Assembly: GCA_035578175.1 (NCBI GenBank)
Contig: JAQMRL010000002.1
Span: 80,075,325 to 80,139,324 of the forward strand
From: Catonia carolina
Lineage: Eukaryota; Arthropoda; Insecta; Hemiptera; Achilidae
DNA: 64,000 nucleotides
Reading direction: 5' to 3'
The position numbers and the translations under genes were made by a program. The notes beneath the pieces are model-generated. The model saw only the letters and a list, made by a program, of their open reading frames with translations, was not told the DNA's origin and searched no databases. Below, piece by piece: positions 7,020 through 39,645 of the stretch (the stretch's first letter is position 1; each line of letters begins with the position of its first letter).

Positions 7020-8374
7020 GGGTGATTCAAAAAGAGCGCCGGTTTTGATATATCAAATTAAGAGATTTATTTTATTGAAAAACTGAAAATAAATACATCA
7101 ACAAGTTCATCTTACCTTCCGATTTCATGTATGAAAAATGATGTCATGCATGTGTCCTCCTCTACTGCGCTGGCACGCATCAACTCTGTCCATGAAATTG
7201 GATATTACTGCACGACAAGTTTCGACTTCCATTTGCCCGATAACCCGTCGAATTTCCTCCTTCAAGTCATTGATGTTTCGGGGTTTATTGGGATACACCA
7301 ATGACTTCAGATGACCCCAAAGATGAAAGTCACAAGGCGTCAAGTCACACGACCTTGGTGGCCATTGATGGTCGGAATTACGAGAAATGATGCGATCCTG
7401 GAACCGTTCACGGAGCAACAACATTGTTTCTCGTGCAGCGTGACAGGTGGCACCAACCTGCTGAAACCACAACTCGTCAATGTCCATTCCATCCAAATGA
7501 CGCCACAAAAACTCTCTAATCATCGTACGGTATCGGTCTCCATTTACTGTCACGGCTTGTCCTTCTTGATTTTCAAAAAGTAAGGGCCGATGACACCGCC
7601 CGACCAAAAGCCGCACCAAACTGTCACTCGCTGTGCATACATTTCCCTTTCATTAACCACGCGAGGGTTTTCTAAACCCCACATACGGCAGTTCTGTTTA
7701 TTAACAAAACCGTTTAAGTGGAAGTGCGCCTCATCACTGAAAATGATTTTGTTTGCGAAGGTGTCATCATCCTGCCGTTTACTCAATACCCAGTCAACAA
7801 ACTGTCGTCTCTTCTGGTGGTCTGCCACTTTCAAATGTTGCGTCAACTGAATTTTATACGGGTGATATTGGAGATCGTACCGAAGAATTCTCCGTACAGA
7901 AGAACATCGTAAACCCAACTGTTGAGAACGGCGACGTATTGATTTTGCTGGGCTAACAGCCACACTGTCACGAACCAACGCAACGTTCTGCTCAGTTCGG
8001 CCAGAACGACGACGTCCAGAACTTTTAAGGTCGACTGTTGAACCCGTCTCAAAAAACTTTTTCAAGAGGCTGCGAACTGTTGATTCATTCGGTGCTTCAT
8101 TACGTCCTAGAGTACCGCGAAGTCGCCTGACAGTAGCCGCATAACTCTCTCCACTGTGGTAAAATGTTTTGACGATTAACACTCGTTGTGCAATAGTAAA
8201 CTTCTCCATGGTTAGACACAGACTGCGAGAGTACTACACTGCGAACAAGAGAAACTACAACTGAATCATCAATCGGAATGTTCTCCGAAATAGAAATGAG
8301 GTCTAACAATGTTGCCAACCGATAAACAAAAATTTACCAGCCGTTTAAAAACCGGCGCTCTTTTTGAATCACCC
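7020..8374 (-). mobile_element. Tc1/mariner-superfamily transposon (DD41D type), 1355 bp
   Basis: Bounded by a perfect 27-bp terminal inverted repeat that starts GGGTGATTCAAAAAGAGCGC. TA precedes the left end (7018-7019). The right end is followed by GT, so the TA duplication has been lost by mutation or the insertion was atypical. The single gene inside runs on the minus strand. The match between the ends suggests a fairly recent insertion. Confidence 0.9.
7125..8209 (-). pseudogene. Transposase of DD41D mariner-like element, frameshifted
   Basis: Would catalyse cut-and-paste transposition of the element at 7020-8374. The ATG at 8209 opens a 219-codon frame with an N-terminal helix-turn-helix region (about residues 1-60), then the first catalytic Asp in IFSDEAHF. 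The frame is lost near 7573-7580, where an A-run (T-run on the coding strand) is one base short; the frame then continues to the stop at 7125. The second catalytic site reads QQVGATCHAA, with Val where the family has Asp. The third is DLTPCDFHLWG. From that Val to the last Asp there are 41 intervening residues, hence DD41D. Two independent lesions make it inactive; otherwise it is full-length (about 350 residues). Confidence 0.9.
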
Positions 8375-16939: not shown

Positions 16940-16986
16940 TTTCTCTTGCTTATATGAATGTATAGGAAGGAAAGTATTGCTTAGTA
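16940..16986 (+). repeat. Family H 5' end abutting the palindromic satellite
   Basis: TTTCTCTTGCTTATATGAAT, a TATAGG dyad and GGAAAGTATTG match the 5' terminus of family H. Beyond this the family H body is replaced by unrelated DNA leading into the poly(A) and satellite block. HINE-type elements are known to keep conserved ends around variable interiors. Confidence 0.6.
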
Positions 16987-17047
16987 GAGGAAGAATGTCT
17001 GTACTGGGACAACCTTGACCTTTGACCACCGGAGATAGGATGACCTT

Positions 17048-17052
<5 letters not shown>

Positions 17053-17133
<81 letters not shown>

Positions 17134-17704
17134 GCCAAATATTTTTTTCCCGCCAAATTTTCAAACTCAATTTTCTCCGCAACCACTGGGCCGATTTTGA
17201 TGCGGACGGCACCCACGTGACCGGGAGATCGAGATCTACAAGATAAGCCCTAAAACTCGTCGATCCGATAACCAGGTCACGTGTTACAAGCTATCTCAGG
17301 TTCCATAGGGGATACGGCTACGGATTAGGGCTTATCTTGTAGATCTCGATCTCCTGGTCACGTGGGTGCCGTCCGCATCAAAATCGGCCCAGCGGTTGCG
17401 GAGAAAATCAGGTTTGAAAATTTAAAAAAATAAAAAAATGGCAAATTTTCAAACCCGATTTTCTCCGCAACCGCTGGTCCGATTTTGATGTGGACGGTAC
17501 CCACGTGACCAGGAGATCGAGATCTACAAGATAAGCCCTAAATCTCATCGATCTGATAACCAGGTCACGTGTTACAAACGATCTCAGGTTCCATCGGGGA
17601 TACGGCTACAAATTAGGGCCTATCTTGTAGATCTCGATCTCCCGGTCACGTGGGTACCGCCCGCGTCAAAATCGGCCCAGCGGTTGAGGAGAAAATCAAG
17701 TTTG

Positions 17705-17747
<43 letters not shown>

Positions 17748-17750
17748 CTC

Positions 17751-17788
<38 letters not shown>

Positions 17789-18979
17789 GGTAAATTTTCA
17801 AAGTCGATTTTCTCCTCAACCGCTGGTCCGATTTTGATGCGGGTGGTATCCACGTGACCAGGAGATCGAGATCTACAAGGTAAGCCCTAAACCTCATCGA
17901 TCCGATAAACAGGTCACGTGTTACAAGCTATCTCAAGTTCCATAGGGGATACGGCTACGGATTAGGGCTTATCTTGTAGATCTCGATCTCCTGGTCACGT
18001 GGGTACCGCCCGCGTCAAAATCGGCCCAGCGGTTGCGGAGAAAATCAGGTTTGAAAATTTAAAAAAATAAAAAAAATGGCAAATTTTCAAACCCGATTTT
18101 CTCCGCAACCGCTGGACCGATTTTGATGTGGGCGGCACCCACGTGACCAGGAGATCGAGATCTACAAGATAAGCCCTCAATCTTATCGATCTGATAACCA
18201 GGTCACGTGTTACAAACGATCTCAGGTTCCATCGGGGATACGGCTACAAATTAGGGCTTATCTTGTAGATCTCGATCTCCCGGTCACGTGGGTACCGCCC
18301 GCATCAAAATCGGTCCAGCGGTTGCGGAGAAAATCAGGTTTGAAAATTTAAAAAAATAAAAAAAATGGCAAATTTTCAAACCCGATTTTCTCCGCAACCG
18401 CTTGGCCGATTTTGATGTGGGCGGTACCCACGTGACCAGGAGATCGAGATCTACAAGATAAGCCCTAAATCTCATCGATCTGATAACCAGGTCACGTGTT
18501 ACAAGCTATCTCAGGTTCCATCGGGGATACAGCTACGGATTAGGGGTTATCATGTAGATCTCGATCTCCTGGTCACGTGGGTACCGCCCGCATTAAAATC
18601 GGTCCAGCGGTTACGGAGAAAATCAAGTTTGAAAATTTTAAAAAATAAAAAAAATGACAAATTTTCAAACCCGATTTTCTCCGTAACCGCTGGACCGATT
18701 TTAATGCGGGTGGCACCCACGTGACCAGGAGATCGAGATCTATAAGATAAGCCCTAAACCTTTTTGATCTGATAACCAGGTCACGTGTTACAAGCTATCT
18801 CAGGTTCCATCGGGGATACGGCTACGGATTAGGGCTTATCTTGTAGATCTCGAGCTCCTGGTCACGTGGGTACCGCCCGCATCAAAATCGGCCCAGCGGT
18901 TGAGGAGAAAATCGAGTTTGAAAATAAAAAAAAAAAAAAAAATAAAAAAAAAAATAAAAAAAAAAAAAAAAAAACTCGC

Positions 18980-19031
<52 letters not shown>

Positions 19032-19205
19032 GGGTCAATTTTCAAACTCGATTTTCTCCGCAACCGCTGGGCCGATTTTGATGCGGCTGGCACCCACGTG
19101 ACCGGGAAATCGAGATCTACAAGATAAGCCCTAATTTGTAGCCGTATCCCCGTTAGAACCCGGGATCGCTTGTAACACGTGACCCGTGGATCGGATCGAC
19201 GAGGT
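17053..19205. repeat. Palindromic-unit satellite, about 290 bp period, 6 full units and one partial
   Basis: Each unit has a left arm of about 85 bp (starting GATTTTCTCCGCAACCGCTG), a spacer of about 71 bp, the right arm as the inverse of the left, and an AT-rich junction of about 48 bp that is itself partly palindromic. Left arms start at about 17170, 17457, 17804, 18095, 18384, 18673 and 19050, so the basic step is 287-291 bp. It is larger where the junction has grown into poly(A)/poly(T) (about 17053-17130, 17708-17787 and 18926-19030). Arms contain GATAAG and CACGTG, and the spacer contains CACGTG; I count 20 CACGTG sites. In the last unit (19133-19205) the spacer is inverted. Confidence 0.9.
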
Positions 19206-19424
19206 TTAGGTGCTCGCAGGATCCGGACATTCCGTAGAACGCGTTACGTCTGGTTTTGGGTCGTAGGTTCTTTCGGGATCCGAACAATCGGTAATTTTGG
19301 TAATTTCGTTTTGAGACGCCCTATGCAACTTGATTACTGCAAATTTGAATGTACAGTTAATTTAGATGATGCAACTCTATTCTTTTAATTTTGACAATGT
19401 CACATGTTGTTTGTTACGAGTCAC
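19206..19424. other. GC-richer stretch between satellite and cassette
   Basis: About 120 bp of GC-rich DNA (to about 19325) and then AT-rich DNA. A 69-codon frame at 19179-19388 has no recognised domain. The composition resembles the cassette downstream, so this could be the remnant of its left flank. Confidence 0.35.
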
Positions 19425-19570
19425 GCTGCTTTACTAGGATTTGAACCAGGAACCTTCATCTCCGAAAATCAGCTGTTAAACAGCTGATAAACAGCTGTTA
19501 AAAATCAGCTGATAAACAGCTGTTAAAAATCAGCTGTTAAACAGCTGTTAAAAATCAGCTGTTCAAAATC
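19425..19570 (-). mobile_element. SINE family C fragment with expanded CAGCTG repeats
   Basis: Begins with the SINE C segment complementary to its B box (AGGATTTGAACCAGGAACCT). It then has six to seven tandem CAGCTG dyads separated by TTAAAAAT or ATAAA. The rest of the SINE head is missing. It stops about 15 bp before the first promoter-like motif of the cassette. Confidence 0.6.
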
Positions 19571-19585
19571 CCTATTTAACCTAGA

Positions 19586-19591
19586 TATAAG
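19586..19591 (+). promoter_or_regulatory. TATA-like motif upstream of the integrase gene
   Basis: TATAAG, 32 bp before the ATG at 19618. Related motifs precede the other four cassette genes at a similar distance, which argues for a shared promoter type. Confidence 0.5.
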
Positions 19592-19617
19592 CAGTGTCGC
19601 TCTCAGTGCATCGCACG

Positions 19618-20544
19618 ATGAGCTTGAGAAGTGGTATAGCGCGCGAGCTTCACAAGCAAGCCCGCAGGAACTATCCCACCAGAAACGTAGAGCTGAAGGG
19701 TATCGACGACTTGTATCAGGCCGATCTGGTAGAGATGATCCCATACGCCAGAGTCAATAAGGGCTACAGATACATAATGACAGTAATTAATTGTTTTTCT
19801 AAATTTGCTATTGCCGTACCGCTCAAGAGCAAGACGGCTGAAGAAGTCGCTAGCGCTCTCGGTCCCATACTGGAAAAACACAAGATGCGCCATTTTCATA
19901 CCGACGAGGGTAAAGAGTGGTATAACGCGTCTGTAAGGTCTCTGCTGTCCAAGCACGGGATCAACCACTACTCCACTTACTCTCCGAAGAAGGCCTCGAT
20001 AGTAGAGCGGTTCAACAGGACGCTGAAGGAGATGATGTGGAGAAAGTTTACAGAACGGGGCAATTACGTTTGGGTAGGTCTTTTAGACGACCTCCTGTCT
20101 CAGTACAATAACAGGTCTCACAGGACTATAGGTTTCAAACCTGTAGATGTAAATAAGAGGAACGAAGGTGAGGTGCTAAGAAATATATTGTCCAATACTC
20201 GTAAGAAACGCGCCCCCCAAACCGTCAAGTTTGAGCCGGGAGATAAGGTCAGGATCAGCAAGTACAAAAAGACTTTCGACAAGGGTTACATACCGAATTG
20301 GACCAATGAGGTGTTTACCGTAGATCGTATTTTGCACACCCGTCCCGTCACATACTCGCTCAAAGACGAAAAAGGACATGTGATCAAAGGTAGTTTTTAC
20401 ACACAGGAACTGAGTAAGACGAAATACGGTGACGTATTTCTCGTCGAGAAGGTATTGAAGAGAAAAGGTGACAGGTTGTTGGTCAGGTGGTTAGGGTATG
20501 ACGAGAGTCACGATTCATGGATCGACAAGAAAGACCTTATATAA
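19618..20544 (+). CDS. Polinton/Maverick-type DDE integrase with chromodomain
   Basis: Predicted to join element DNA ends to the host chromosome. It has 308 codons from the ATG at 19618; an in-frame TAA lies 30 bp upstream (19588), so this is the first usable ATG. A retroviral-type integrase core spans about residues 25-195, with candidate triad Asp36 (in YQADLVEM), Asp96 (in HTDEGKEW) and Glu130 (in SIVERFN); 33 residues separate the last two. A basic, SH3-like stretch follows, with 'FEPGDKVRISKYK' at about 213-225. The last 38 residues form a chromodomain (start VFLVEKVLKRKG; aromatic WLGYDESHDSW). The family is what databases call transposon-derived F54H12.3-like. The N-terminal zinc-binding region usual in relatives is absent. 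No lesion is visible in the core. Confidence 0.9.
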   Translation: MSLRSGIARELHKQARRNYPTRNVELKGIDDLYQADLVEMIPYARVNKGYRYIMTVINCFSKFAIAVPLKSKTAEEVASALGPILEKHKMRHFHTDEGKEWYNASVRSLLSKHGINHYSTYSPKKASIVERFNRTLKEMMWRKFTERGNYVWVGLLDDLLSQYNNRSHRTIGFKPVDVNKRNEGEVLRNILSNTRKKRAPQTVKFEPGDKVRISKYKKTFDKGYIPNWTNEVFTVDRILHTRPVTYSLKDEKGHVIKGSFYTQELSKTKYGDVFLVEKVLKRKGDRLLVRWLGYDESHDSWIDKKDLI

Positions 20545-20545
20545 G
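20540..20545 (+). promoter_or_regulatory. TATA-like motif upstream of the ATPase gene
   Basis: TATATAAG overlaps the integrase stop codon and lies about 41 bp before the ATPase ATG. Confidence 0.5.
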
Positions 20546-20580
20546 AGCTGTAATGTAGGTTTATCGGTTACTAGCGCAAA

Positions 20581-21294
20581 ATGAGGTGTAGGGAGCAGAA
20601 AGAGAAACTCCCTGTCGTCAACTTAGATGTGCTTATCGAGTCGGGAGAAATAGGCGAAACGAGAAACAGACACGGTCGCCTCTTGCCGAATAGTATCAGA
20701 TGTTTGGCCGTAGGTCCGTCGAATTGTGGCAAGACAAACGCAATAATCAACCTGCTGTTCGACCCCAACGGGCTGAGGTTCTGCAATGTGTACGTATTTT
20801 CAAAATCTCTGCACCAACCCAAGTATAGGTTTTTGGAGCGCGTGTTTCATGATATGGAGGGTGTAGACTATCACGAATTCAGCGACAATGCGCAAGTCCC
20901 GCCTCCGGAAGAGGTAGAGCCCAATTCCGTGATGATGTTTGACGATGTTGTATGCGAGAAACAACACAACGTGGTAAAATACTTTGCTATGGGGAGACAT
21001 AACAACCTGGACGTATTTTACCTATGCCAGACATATAGTAAGGCGCCTAAACAGCTCGTTAGAGATAATGCAAATTTTTTACTCGTGTTCCGTCAGGACG
21101 AGCGCAACCTACGCCATATCTTTAACGATCACGTAGTCCCTGATATGACTTTTGGGGAGTTCAAGAATCTGTGCGGTGAGGCGTGGTCTCGAAACATGAA
21201 CGGGTTTCTAGTAGTCGACAAGGAGAGAAAAACCCTCGGCGGCCGCTATAGATTTAACTACGATACGTTCATCACCGAACTACGACCCGTTTAG
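20581..21294 (+). CDS. A32/FtsK-HerA-like genome-packaging ATPase
   Basis: Predicted to power translocation of the element's DNA into a capsid, as the A32-type ATPases of Polintons, adintoviruses and related dsDNA viruses do. It has 237 codons. Walker A GPSNCGKT is at about residues 45-52 and Walker B VMMFDDV at about 117-123. A polar sensor-like segment YLCQTYSK at about 147-154 is followed by a hydrophobic strand (FLLVF). The whole domain is present at the usual length with no stop or frameshift. It lies 36 bp after the integrase stop in the same direction. Its presence sets this cassette apart from a plain integrase-type transposon. Confidence 0.9.
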   Translation: MRCREQKEKLPVVNLDVLIESGEIGETRNRHGRLLPNSIRCLAVGPSNCGKTNAIINLLFDPNGLRFCNVYVFSKSLHQPKYRFLERVFHDMEGVDYHEFSDNAQVPPPEEVEPNSVMMFDDVVCEKQHNVVKYFAMGRHNNLDVFYLCQTYSKAPKQLVRDNANFLLVFRQDERNLRHIFNDHVVPDMTFGEFKNLCGEAWSRNMNGFLVVDKERKTLGGRYRFNYDTFITELRPV

Positions 21295-21301
21295 ACCGAC
21301 A

Positions 21302-22030
21302 TACAGCAGGAAAAAGCTGCGCAGCTAGCAGGAATAAGCAGGAAAAAGCTGCGCAGCTAGCAGGAATAAGCTGGAAAAAGCTGCGCAGCTAGCAGGAATA
21401 AGCAGGAAAAAGCTGCGCAGCTAGCAGGAAAAAGCAGGAAAAAGCTGCGCAGCTAGCAGGAATAAGCAGGAAAAAGCTGCGCAGCTAGCAGGAACAAGCA
21501 GGAAAAAGCTGCGCAGCTAGCAGGAAAAAGCAGGAAAAAGCTGCGCAGCTAGCAGGAATAAGCAGGAAAAAGCTGCGCAGCTAGCAGGAATAAGCAGGAA
21601 AAAGCTGCGCAGCTAGCACGAATAAGCAGGAAAAAGCTGCGCAGCTAGCAGGAATAAGCAGGAAAAAGCTGCGCAGCTAGCAGGAATAAGCAGGAAAAAG
21701 CTGCGCAGCTAGCTGGAAAAAGCTGCGCAGCTAGCAGGAAAAAGCTGCGCAGCTAGCAGGTCAGTCGACTGCGCAGCTTAGGGAGCAGGTCAGTCGACTG
21801 CGCAGTCGACTGCGCAGCTAGCAGGTCAGTCGACTGCGCAGTCGACTGCACAGCTTAGGGAGCAGGTCAGTCGACTGCTCAGTCGACTGCGCAGTCGACT
21901 GCGCAGCTTAGAGAGCAGGTCAGTCGACTGCGCAGCTAGCAGGAATAAGCAGGAAAAAGCTGCGCAGCTAGCAGGAATAAGCAGGAAAAAGCTGCGCAGC
22001 TAGCAGGAAAAAGCTGGAAAAAGCTGTACA
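21302..22030. repeat. Phased palindromic repeat array (32-bp unit)
   Basis: The 12-bp palindrome AGCTGCGCAGCT recurs at 21315 and then every 32 bp exactly through 21699 (13 copies). Two more follow at 22-bp steps (21721, 21743). After a middle block built from GTCGACTGCGCAG dyads (about 21760-21935), two more copies lie 32 bp apart (21958, 21990). Linkers read CAGGAATAAGCAGGAAAA with small variants. It sits between the ATPase stop and the promoter of the 438-aa gene and codes for nothing. Steps of 32 and 22 bp are close to three and two helical turns. Candidate replication origin, packaging site or enhancer. Confidence 0.95.
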
Positions 22031-22043
22031 GTCGCAGGTCGTG

Positions 22044-22050
22044 TATATAT
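22044..22050 (+). promoter_or_regulatory. TATA-like motif upstream of the 438-aa gene
   Basis: TATATAT, 46 bp before the ATG at 22090 and just after the repeat array. This gene lacks the exact TATAAG form. Confidence 0.45.
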
Positions 22051-22089
22051 TGACGGTAGTGGAAAGGTACTGCGTTAATAGACGATGAG

Positions 22090-22383
22090 ATGGCTTCGAG
22101 ACAGGTCGACGAGAATCTAGTGCTGGAGATCGCAGAGTTACGCAGGAGGATTAGAGAGAAGCAACTAGTTCTGAAGCATGGCTTGACTGAGGAAGATCTC
22201 AGGATACAGAAGCAGCTCAAACCGCTAACCGACCCACTATCGAAGCTGTTGAACGAGAAGAAAGCCGAGACCGACCCTTCCTCAACGAGCGAACCGTTGA
22301 AGGGTGTAAAGCGTAGGGAGACATTGAAGCCTTTTAGGACGAAACCTGAAAAGCGGCCTTTTAGCCGGGTTAAAGCTCTTGAC

Positions 22384-22421
<38 letters not shown>

Positions 22422-23406
22422 CGAAGAAGACAGAGTCGCAGGTAAAAGTATCGACGACTCATGGAAGGATCTGATGACCGGACCCTACAGGTATTCCAAT
22501 CTGAAGAGGAGTAGCGACGGGTTCGGACCTCGGCATACTAAGAAGAAGACCTCGGACGAACCGATGGATGCGGGAGACCCCCATAGGATGGATGAGATGG
22601 ATACGAGCGTCAGCCTCCCAGTGGAGTTCACGGAGGACGATGCAACTGTCGGGAATTCCGCTGAGATGAGGGACGCTTCCAGACCTCACGCCACCCCGGC
22701 GAGGACTTTACCTCGCGAGGAGGAGTTTAGCACGCCTACCACTATAGAGGAGATGCTTTCGACGCCTCTAGGTAAGGTTCGAGCTTCCGTATGGGTCAAG
22801 AACACGTTTCCCGGACGTCTGGCCCGTCAGTACATGCATGAGGCCATCACAGACTCCGACAACAATACGGATTCTACATACGGGGTACACTTCGAAGGCA
22901 GCGAATTGGTGATGGGTGATTCTACGGTACAACTCAAGCCTGACGACTCGATAATCGTCGGAGACGTATCGTACCCAGGCACGCACGGTCTGTACGAGCT
23001 GATATTCAAAAGGAAACCCGATCCGTTCATCTACTCGGAAGAAGACTTGGAGGAGTACAAAAACTTATTGGAAGCCACAAGCGCCCACAGAAGGAACAAC
23101 TCGGCGCTAGGTCAAGTGAAGGCCAACACAGGGAAAAAGTACGTCTCAATCATAAGCCGGCTTTTCCCTCCGAAGCCGGACCGACCGAAGCGCGGTAAGG
23201 GTATACGAGCCGGACCTATGATGGAGCTGAACGGAAACAGGAAGACCGAGTACGTATATTTCGACGATCCCAACGAGCTTTGCGACAGGCTTAGACTCCT
23301 CGTAGCTTCTAAAGACTCGGGCCATACGGGTCACGACAGCGAGATAAATTCAATAGTCGAGGAACTCAAAGAGCTGGGGCTTATAAGAGGAGATCTACGT
23401 CTGTAA
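22090..23406 (+). CDS. DUF8207-like protein of the Polinton-type cassette
   Basis: 438 codons, intact. Residues 1-40 are charged and helical, probably a short coiled coil. A run of 14 aspartates lies at about 98-111, encoded by a GAT repeat (22381-22421). A low-complexity, acidic and Ser/Thr-rich stretch extends to about 215. A globular region at about 255-352 contains YGVHFEG, a 'VGD..Y.GT.GLYEL.F' block and 'NNSALGQVKANTGKKY'. I recognise this as the arthropod family called DUF8207, usually found beside integrase and ATPase genes of this kind. Function unknown. A structural or DNA-binding virion protein is an inference from position only. A competing out-of-frame ATG lies at 22085. Family name given from memory. 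Confidence 0.75.
23382..23387 (+). promoter_or_regulatory. TATA-like motif upstream of the 150-aa gene
   Basis: TATAAG inside the 3' end of the 438-aa gene, 39 bp before the ATG at 23421. Confidence 0.45.
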
Positions 23407-23420
23407 CCCTCATTCTCGCT

Positions 23421-23873
23421 ATGGACACTGGAAGATCCGTACGTCGTTTTCTCACCCCTTACAGGGTTACCGCAGATGGAGATATGGACATGAGAGACCG
23501 GAGAATCTGTCGCGTAGGCGTAGCCCAGTCGTATACGGACGCGGTCAACGTCAACGAATGCATGAGGCTCATCCAAGCTTACGCTGAAGATTACGGTGTC
23601 CTCGAGGTCTTGGAGGAGGGCGGTGGCGAACCTTACTACGACCTTTACGGTCGCAGGATGGCGCAAGTAGGAGATCCGATCGAAGAAGAAGACGCCATCA
23701 ACCTCAAGTACTTGAAAGAGTACCTTTCCTCCCACGCCGAAAAGATGAAAGTTTCAGATCCCGTCAAAGACGAGCGAGTCGACGAAATGTTGAAAATGCG
23801 CGATGAGGTCCAAAAGCTGCGCAAAGAGTTTGAGGACGTATCGTCACGCCTGGAGGGAAAAAGCGCATCATAA
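23421..23873 (+). CDS. Small fibre-like / coiled-coil protein
   Basis: 150 codons, intact, starting 14 bp after the preceding stop. Residues about 18-45 read 'DGDMDMRDRRICRVG' then 'SYTDAVNVNECM'. This recalls the 'dm...rI..vg.P....DAvN' collar motif of phage and virus tail or spike proteins; a second such hit is 'GDPIEEEDAINLKYLKEYL' at about 80-98. Residues about 105-145 are a likely coiled coil (heptads of L/V/M with many K/E). The pattern suggests an oligomeric stalk or fibre, but that is inference from motif resemblance. No close relative identified. Confidence 0.65.
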   Translation: MDTGRSVRRFLTPYRVTADGDMDMRDRRICRVGVAQSYTDAVNVNECMRLIQAYAEDYGVLEVLEEGGGEPYYDLYGRRMAQVGDPIEEEDAINLKYLKEYLSSHAEKMKVSDPVKDERVDEMLKMRDEVQKLRKEFEDVSSRLEGKSAS

Positions 23874-23878
23874 ATAAG
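23870..23878 (+). promoter_or_regulatory. AATAAG motif upstream of the PLA2-like gene
   Basis: ATAAATAAG overlaps the previous stop codon, about 42 bp before the ATG at 23915. Weakest of the five promoter-like motifs. Confidence 0.35.
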
Positions 23879-23914
23879 GAAACACGGGTCCTCGAGCTTC
23901 ATTCCGACCTTAAA

Positions 23915-24145
23915 ATGGGGAGATGCAACACGTTTCGCAGCAGATCGCATTCAGGAGCCGGACTGGTAGGGAGCATCGCGAGCGGAGTCTTAGGAGCTGC
24001 AGAGAACGTCGTAGGAACCGTATTGAACAAAGCGATAGACGTTTTACCCGTGGAACTCCACATACCGGGCTATCAGTACTGCGGACCGGGGACGGACCTG
24101 CAGAAGAGATTGAGAAGAGGAGACCCGGGCAGTAGGGGAAAATAG
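23915..24145 (+). pseudogene. Parvovirus-type phospholipase A2-like protein, 3' truncated
   Basis: 76 codons, of which the last three or four appear foreign. Residues about 14-40 form a glycine/alanine-rich segment (SGAGLVGSIASGVLG), as in membrane-active N-termini. Residues about 48-72 match the start of the secreted-PLA2-like domain of parvovirus VP1 and similar virus proteins: an LPVELHIPGYQYCGPGT core with the calcium-loop YCGPG, then the RRGDPG segment. The family next requires the catalytic His-Asp pair. Here the similarity stops at GDPG, a stop codon follows, and the downstream DNA is a dispersed T-rich repeat. The protein as encoded cannot be catalytic. In viruses this domain helps particles leave endosomes. 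Confidence 0.8.
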
Positions 24146-24469
24146 GGTTGTTCTACCCAAAATGGTTTTGGATTTGTTTTATTTTAGTTTTCTGTTGTCA
24201 GATTGTGATTGTGATGGGTTTGGGTATCTGTATTTGTATTAGGTCCAATCAGCTCAGAAAATGTTTTTTGGGTTTGTTTAGGGTTGGTTGTCTTTGGTCA
24301 GATTATGATAGGTTTGGTTTTCTTTATTTGTGTTTGGTGTTATGGTCAGATTTGTTGTTGTTGTTGTTGTTGTTGTTTAGTTGGTTGGTTGGTTGGTTGG
24401 TTGGTTGGTTGGTTGGTTGGTTTGGTTGGTTTTGTAGATGTTGGTGTAGTTTGTGGGATGTGGGTTGTG

Positions 24470-39569: not shown

Positions 39570-39645
39570 GGAGTGTTTTGCCTCAAAATGGTTTTGGATT
39601 TGTTTTGTTTTAGTTTTCTGTTGTCAGATTGTGATGGGATAATTA
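39570..39645 (+). repeat. Second copy of the sequence that borders the cassette
   Basis: Matches 24155-24215 (AAAATGGTTTTGGATTTG, TTTAGTTTTCTGTTGTCAGA), showing that the DNA directly 3' of the PLA2-like fragment is a dispersed repeat and not cassette sequence. Confidence 0.7.

Follow-up and report, generated by a model that had tools for sequence, protein, structure and literature searches.

Is a tight group of virus-like genes in an insect genome a reduced mobile element that relies on a helper for replication and capsid, or what remains of a larger element whose other genes were lost with its 3′ end? The question is raised by a locus in a 64,000-nucleotide stretch of the genome of Catonia carolina (Hemiptera, Achilidae; assembly GCA_035578175.1, contig JAQMRL010000002.1, positions 80,075,325 to 80,139,324 of the forward strand), hereafter the window, where an original prediction made from the sequence alone had placed a compact Polinton-like cassette at 19586–24135, encoding an integrase, a packaging ATPase, a DUF8207 protein, a fibre-like protein and a phospholipase A2 (PLA2) domain. 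Polintons, or Mavericks, have terminal inverted repeats starting with AGT and 6-bp target-site duplications; they replicate themselves by a protein-primed polymerase, are packaged in their own capsid and are inserted by their integrase. The placement near Polintons and adintoviruses was correct, and the locus belongs to a new member of this known kind of element, not to a new miniature element. The family is a young, very abundant Polinton/Maverick with complete copies of ~18.5 kb, and the locus is almost certainly a 3′-truncated copy of it (16983–24131).

The right end of the locus was compared with other copies of the family, obtained by an ATPase search of the 1.47-Gb host genome that gave 611 first-look candidates, of which 150 were scored (all counts are lower bounds) and the 30 best-scoring, window included, were studied in detail. 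Right flanks were read from 12 other copies, 11 taken from among the 29 other loci and a twelfth from the 149 other scored places, selected to span different left-arm types and identities. All 12 part from the window at the same place (Table 1) and run on through the PLA2 active-site region; 11 of them contain a complete PLA2 gene followed by an open protease-like frame of 138–139 aa, behind which a 335-aa frame is complete in seven flanks and in four stays open as far as the piece extends. The remaining flank, L041, shares 172 bp beyond the break and then continues into unrelated DNA (it matches another flank, L042, only up to L041 position 476); its PLA2 frame reaches only 151 aa, and the protease and 335-aa frames are missing. 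Note that L018, L041 and L050 are pieces of one copy; because PolB sequence lies further right in L050, the unrelated DNA in L041 is probably an insertion there, another mobile element.

In the window, the break cuts inside the PLA2 domain. The frame at 23915–24145 has 76 residues, 72 of which belong to the gene, and covers model positions 2–20 of 80 of PF08398 with 23.1 bits, just under the cut-off of 23.9; the YCGPG calcium loop is kept and the CKQHDIAY active-site region, with its His-Asp pair, is lost. The PLA2-type fragment of the original prediction is therefore confirmed as a piece, cut in mid-domain. The proteins of the right half have no match in the window save PLA2 residues 1–72, and the DNA of two right-arm pieces of other copies, L045 and L046, matches it only in the left terminal repeat and at host-repeat places. 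The rest of PLA2, the protease-like, 335-aa, capsid, 262-aa and PolB-like genes and the right terminal repeat were not found elsewhere in the window, and the right half of the target-site duplication was lost with the right end.

These observations bear directly on the helper-dependent form that had been offered as one of two readings, i.e. a reduced non-autonomous element made of an integrase, an ATPase and a few virion genes, which would spread as a short unit with replication and capsid supplied by a helper. The open frames and complete left end of the short copy, together with possible helpers in the same genome, are what one would expect of such an element; its right end, however, is cut within PLA2, removing the catalytic His-Asp region, the window shows no right terminal repeat of this element downstream, and not one of the 12 other copies spanning the break has the short form, so that we regard this explanation as most improbable. 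The other reading, that of a remnant deprived of genes along with its 3′ end, agrees with the continuation of 12/12 copies past the break and with the capsid and PolB-like genes of the complete copies described below.

The window copy differs from its closest relatives by 0 of 1674 bp (L006), 0 (L008) and 1 (L004). In all three copies the right piece (L034, L035 and L033 for L006, L008 and L004, respectively) crosses the break point and its PLA2, protease-like and 335-aa frames are complete, and right terminal-repeat sequence is present at the expected distance in L054 (the L004 copy) and L055 (the L006 copy). Since such near-identical relatives are unbroken there, the truncation is recent and not common to L004, L006 and L008.

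The longer versions with polB and capsid genes that the original prediction proposed to look for exist. Two natural copies (contigs C1 and C2), read in separate pieces to both ends, measure 18,600 and 18,412 bp, begin and end with AGT and are both flanked by perfect 6-bp target-site duplications (CACATT and TACCTA, respectively); between their two arms, the best aligned stretch has 97.5% identity over 1416 bases (C1) and 92.4% over 1099 (C2). Beyond PLA2, whose full domain scores E 5.3e-14 in C2, both carry the protease-like, 335-aa, capsid and PolB-like genes. The capsid protein of C2 (400 aa) belongs to the double-jelly-roll family PF21738 with E 9.6e-99, and the C1 capsid region is 97.7% identical to it. 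The protease-like protein (138 aa) has a weak match to the S273R protease of ASFV (E 0.019) and none in Pfam, and the 335-aa gene, a candidate by position for the minor capsid (penton) gene, located between the protease-like and capsid genes and with its last few residues in C2 outside the piece whose frames were listed, has no convincing family match. C1 is not fully intact, because most of a 262-aa gene present in C2 is missing from it. The PolB-like gene lies on the opposite strand as a 1375-aa frame in both copies; in C2 its protein contains DANNLYGWAM, KLLNNAVFGK and YMDTDSF, which we take to be motifs of family B polymerases, along with an endonuclease VII-like domain (E 2.3e-7). In seven further right-arm pieces, PolB sequence was found in three (L050, L051, L053) and terminal-repeat sequence in four (L049, L052, L054, L055). 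As a separate observation, a segment of at least 300 nt is duplicated, at 79% identity, within the N-terminal part of the PolB-like gene (L045 5342–5641 and 5960–6259), and this duplication is also present in L046.

The close copies, as far as the two followed to both ends are concerned, are thus standard Polintons within the 15–25 kb range with polB and capsid genes, a finding that, according to the original prediction itself, makes the locus just a truncated copy. The likeness to Polintons/Mavericks (Polintoviricetes) comprises the rve integrase, the packaging ATPase, a putative cysteine protease-like gene, the double-jelly-roll capsid and the PolB-like gene, as well as AGT termini, long terminal inverted repeats, 6-bp duplications and the size of complete copies. 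Polintons and their relatives exchange genes, as is well established, and one could thus envisage a separate kind of element having only the integrase–ATPase cassette in common with them; with the complete copies Polinton-like in their termini, 6-bp duplications, size, capsid family and PolB-like gene, this seems scarcely credible. Differences from known Polintons are the missing right half of the window copy and, for the family, terminal repeats that contain arrays of 289-bp units, the basic tail of the PLA2 gene and the cyclin-like gene that part of the copies carry.

The left end is preserved. Aligning the ends of C1 and C2 places the left terminus at 16983, AGTAGAGGAAGA, preceded by TTGCTT, and window positions from 19566 to ~17001 match the right arm in L046 (6717–9842) in inverted orientation, in overlapping pieces. 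The terminal repeat of the window copy is thus 2.6 kb long and was omitted from the coordinates of the compact cassette, which were too narrow on this side. An insert starting near 19570 and cut at both ends is ruled out, as other copies show 16983–19566 to be terminal repeat. In all, the window copy is 7,149 bp long (7.1 kb), the left part of the element only, in which the left terminus survives together with the terminal repeat and four of the five genes. The 289-bp tandem units within the terminal repeat (17090–19210) are each composed of inverted halves; that this array is a host or separate satellite was ruled out by its presence in the arms of other copies.

Several points weigh against the conclusion that the locus is a truncated Polinton, and are best considered together. 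PolB was assigned from motifs alone, Pfam and PDB searches giving no polymerase match. The 30 copies studied in detail are the best-scoring ones and therefore biased to intact copies, and not every other copy is whole, L041 being interrupted in PLA2 and C1 lacking most of the 262-aa gene. The recurrence of the junction at 24131 was judged on the 12 copies read across it. Finally, the element could be whole here and the assembly collapsed or misjoined at 24131: low-complexity, repetitive DNA adjoins the break on its right, and a highly repeated family invites misjoins. Against such an artefact, the window contains no N, the DNA that follows the break is of host type and recurs in part elsewhere in the window, and the 12 other copies were assembled through the corresponding point, which leaves a misassembly very unlikely.

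We then consider the genes of the window copy as a truncated Polinton (Table 1). All five frames of the cassette are present on the + strand where they had been placed; the description of their gaps as short does not hold, with 795 bp, mostly minisatellite, between the ATPase and 438-aa genes. The frames of at least 100 aa (438, 308, 237 and 150 aa, 1133 aa in total) are real and not due to chance: in 1000 simulated sequences with the same dinucleotide frequencies, the longest frame was 191 aa and the largest total 495, never approaching those observed. The G+C content is 50% in 19570–24148 and 28.6 to 39.1% in 2-kb stretches outside 18001–24000. No tRNA and no Rfam family was found in the window.

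Table 1. Coordinates of the features of the window copy, its surroundings and the cyclin-like gene of other copies
Feature	Position	Strand	Remarks
TTGCTT, presumed left half of 6-bp target-site duplication	16977..16982	.	directly precedes AGT terminus, like CACATT and TACCTA in the two complete copies
Left terminal inverted repeat, starts with AGT	16983..19566	.	inverted match to right arm of another copy (several overlapping pieces)
Array of ~289-bp units, internal inverted repeats in each	17090..19210	.	within terminal repeat; also in arms of other copies
62-bp piece of dispersed host repeat	19427..19488	.	in terminal repeat; longer repeat at four other window places
CAGCTGTTAAA-type minisatellite	19465..19566	.	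between host-repeat piece and integrase promoter
TATA-box-like site	19586..19591	+	32 nt upstream of integrase ATG
Integrase, rve core and C-terminal chromodomain	19618..20544	+	308 aa from first ATG; frame 19594–20544
A32-type genome-packaging ATPase	20581..21294	+	237 aa; Pox_A32 profile
Non-coding minisatellite	21305..22046	.	~740 bp; separates ATPase and 438-aa genes
438-aa protein	22090..23406	+	no family match
150-aa fibre-like protein	23421..23873	+	T7 tail fibre PF03906 E 2.2e-4 (below cut-off); tail-fibre PHROGs down to E 2.6e-6
PLA2 gene start	23915..24130	+	first 72 aa; complete gene 206 aa in 11/12 other copies
Break point, homology to other copies ends	24131..24132	.	12/12 copies match to 24129–24131, then diverge from window
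Host repeat immediately right of break	24149..24209	.	94% match to window 39574–39635
Cyclin-like gene	L045 6984–7355, L051 271–642, L053 605–976	-	Cyclin_N PF00134 E 7.1e-13 in L045

The integrase has the predicted DDE triad (rve PF00665, E 4.1e-10; D44-D104-E138 with 33 residues between D and E) and a C-terminal chromodomain (PF00385, E 4.4e-4, below the Pfam cut-off). The packaging ATPase was likewise recovered, with a Pox_A32 match (PF04665, E 5.4e-5) of 23.2 bits that is barely above the cut-off of 22.8, and the fibre-like assignment of the 150-aa protein agrees with the profiles listed in Table 1. The DUF8207 label of the 438-aa protein could not be confirmed in Pfam, being absent from the results at E up to 1 with the whole protein and up to 10 with two parts of it, and a literature search for DUF8207 returned nothing. 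A PDB sequence search with the ATPase and the 438-aa protein gave weak matches only, which we took for chance. Predicted structures of the C-terminal part of the 438-aa protein (pLDDT 37.5) and of the ATPase with one distant relative (pLDDT 30.0) were too poor and were not used.

Besides the site ahead of the integrase, TATA-like sites are located 39–46 nt upstream of the ATGs of the ATPase, 438-aa and 150-aa genes, and all five + strand TATA[AT][AG] matches in 19570–24148 sit 32–46 nt ahead of ATGs (19586, 20538–20540, 22044, 23382). This spacing, noticed post hoc, concerns four of the five window genes, the PLA2 gene being the exception; a TATA box at fixed distance as a rule for all genes of the element is ruled out, with 0/6 among the genes further right. 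The sites are kept among copies (integrase 30/30, ATPase 30/30, 438-aa gene 28/28 where the start was found), copies that are near-identical and so not independent.

By analogy with known Polintons, a complete copy would replicate via its own protein-primed polymerase, the ATPase would package the DNA into a capsid of the element's own double-jelly-roll protein, and the integrase would insert the element and yield the 6-bp duplications. As for the fibre-like and PLA2 proteins, they most likely belong to the virion, where they may serve attachment and membrane passage. The window copy may have integrated as a complete element and then lost its right part by deletion or recombination, or may have been inserted already broken. 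As it stands, it most likely could not replicate or package by itself and is dead as an autonomous element, because it lacks the capsid and PolB genes.

Adintoviruses, as described in PMC11071296, share an rve integrase with C-terminal chromodomain, a PolB-like gene and a hexon-type capsid gene; according to PMC12451622, the Adintoviridae have been renamed Eupolintoviridae by ICTV. A PLA2-bearing virus-like contig, IMG/VR 3300007522_001028 (L001), encodes a large fibre-type protein, an ATPase whose C-terminal motifs are similar and a PLA2 protein belonging to the same domain family. It is distant (tblastn E 7e-5 for PLA2, 0.005 for the ATPase), and the window integrase has no match in the examined stretch of it (best E 3.5). 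Another contig found by an integrase pattern (L002) was rejected as a relative, being without an integrase match and with frames that by eye are like those of a tailed phage. No useful match resulted from scans of viral contigs with the ATPase, integrase and 438-aa proteins and a Walker A pattern, nor from an ATPase scan of the genome contigs collection and a check of phage records.

Host DNA is found within the arms of the family. The 62-bp piece in the terminal repeat derives from a host repeat which is presumably tRNA-derived and SINE-like, and is present in 5/30 left arms (window, L004, L006, L008 and L028) and in five of the eight right-arm pieces that reach the arm (L046, L049, L052, L054 and L055); it was not found in the three pieces bearing the cyclin-like gene. 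In the C1 copy, it is in the right arm (L046) and not in the left one (L003, L047). This distribution suggests that the piece was captured in one arm and later exchanged between arms.

A cyclin-like gene lies between PolB and the right arm in three of the eight right-arm pieces reaching the arm. In the other five, different arm sequence occupies this site, with L046 retaining just the last 23 residues; L050 stops short of it. The gene was seemingly captured from a host; as the part upstream of it is in another reading frame, it may be a pseudogene or undergo splicing. Elsewhere in the window, two overlapping frames at 7125–8209 on the - strand presumably resemble a mariner-type transposase.

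How active is the family? All 150 scored ATPase matches are full length and 96–100% identical, 148 being without a stop, and integrase and ATPase are both open in 30/30 of the best places. Among these 30, dividing non-synonymous by synonymous differences per site gives 0.070 in the ATPase (20 haplotypes) and 0.157 in the integrase (22 haplotypes), values from which selection between copies appears strongly purifying. Given copies identical over 1674 bp, frames nearly all open, purifying selection, arm exchange and host DNA capture, the family may be a Polinton virus still moving in the living animal, its lineages seemingly exchanging terminal arms and capturing host DNA, a proposal that we put forward tentatively and hold to be rather less probable than its converse. 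The single locus, being one broken element of an already known kind, is in itself of little weight. With at least 150 near-identical ATPase genes, open frames and ratios of 0.07 and 0.16, this host is well suited for asking whether animal Polintons still move and form particles.

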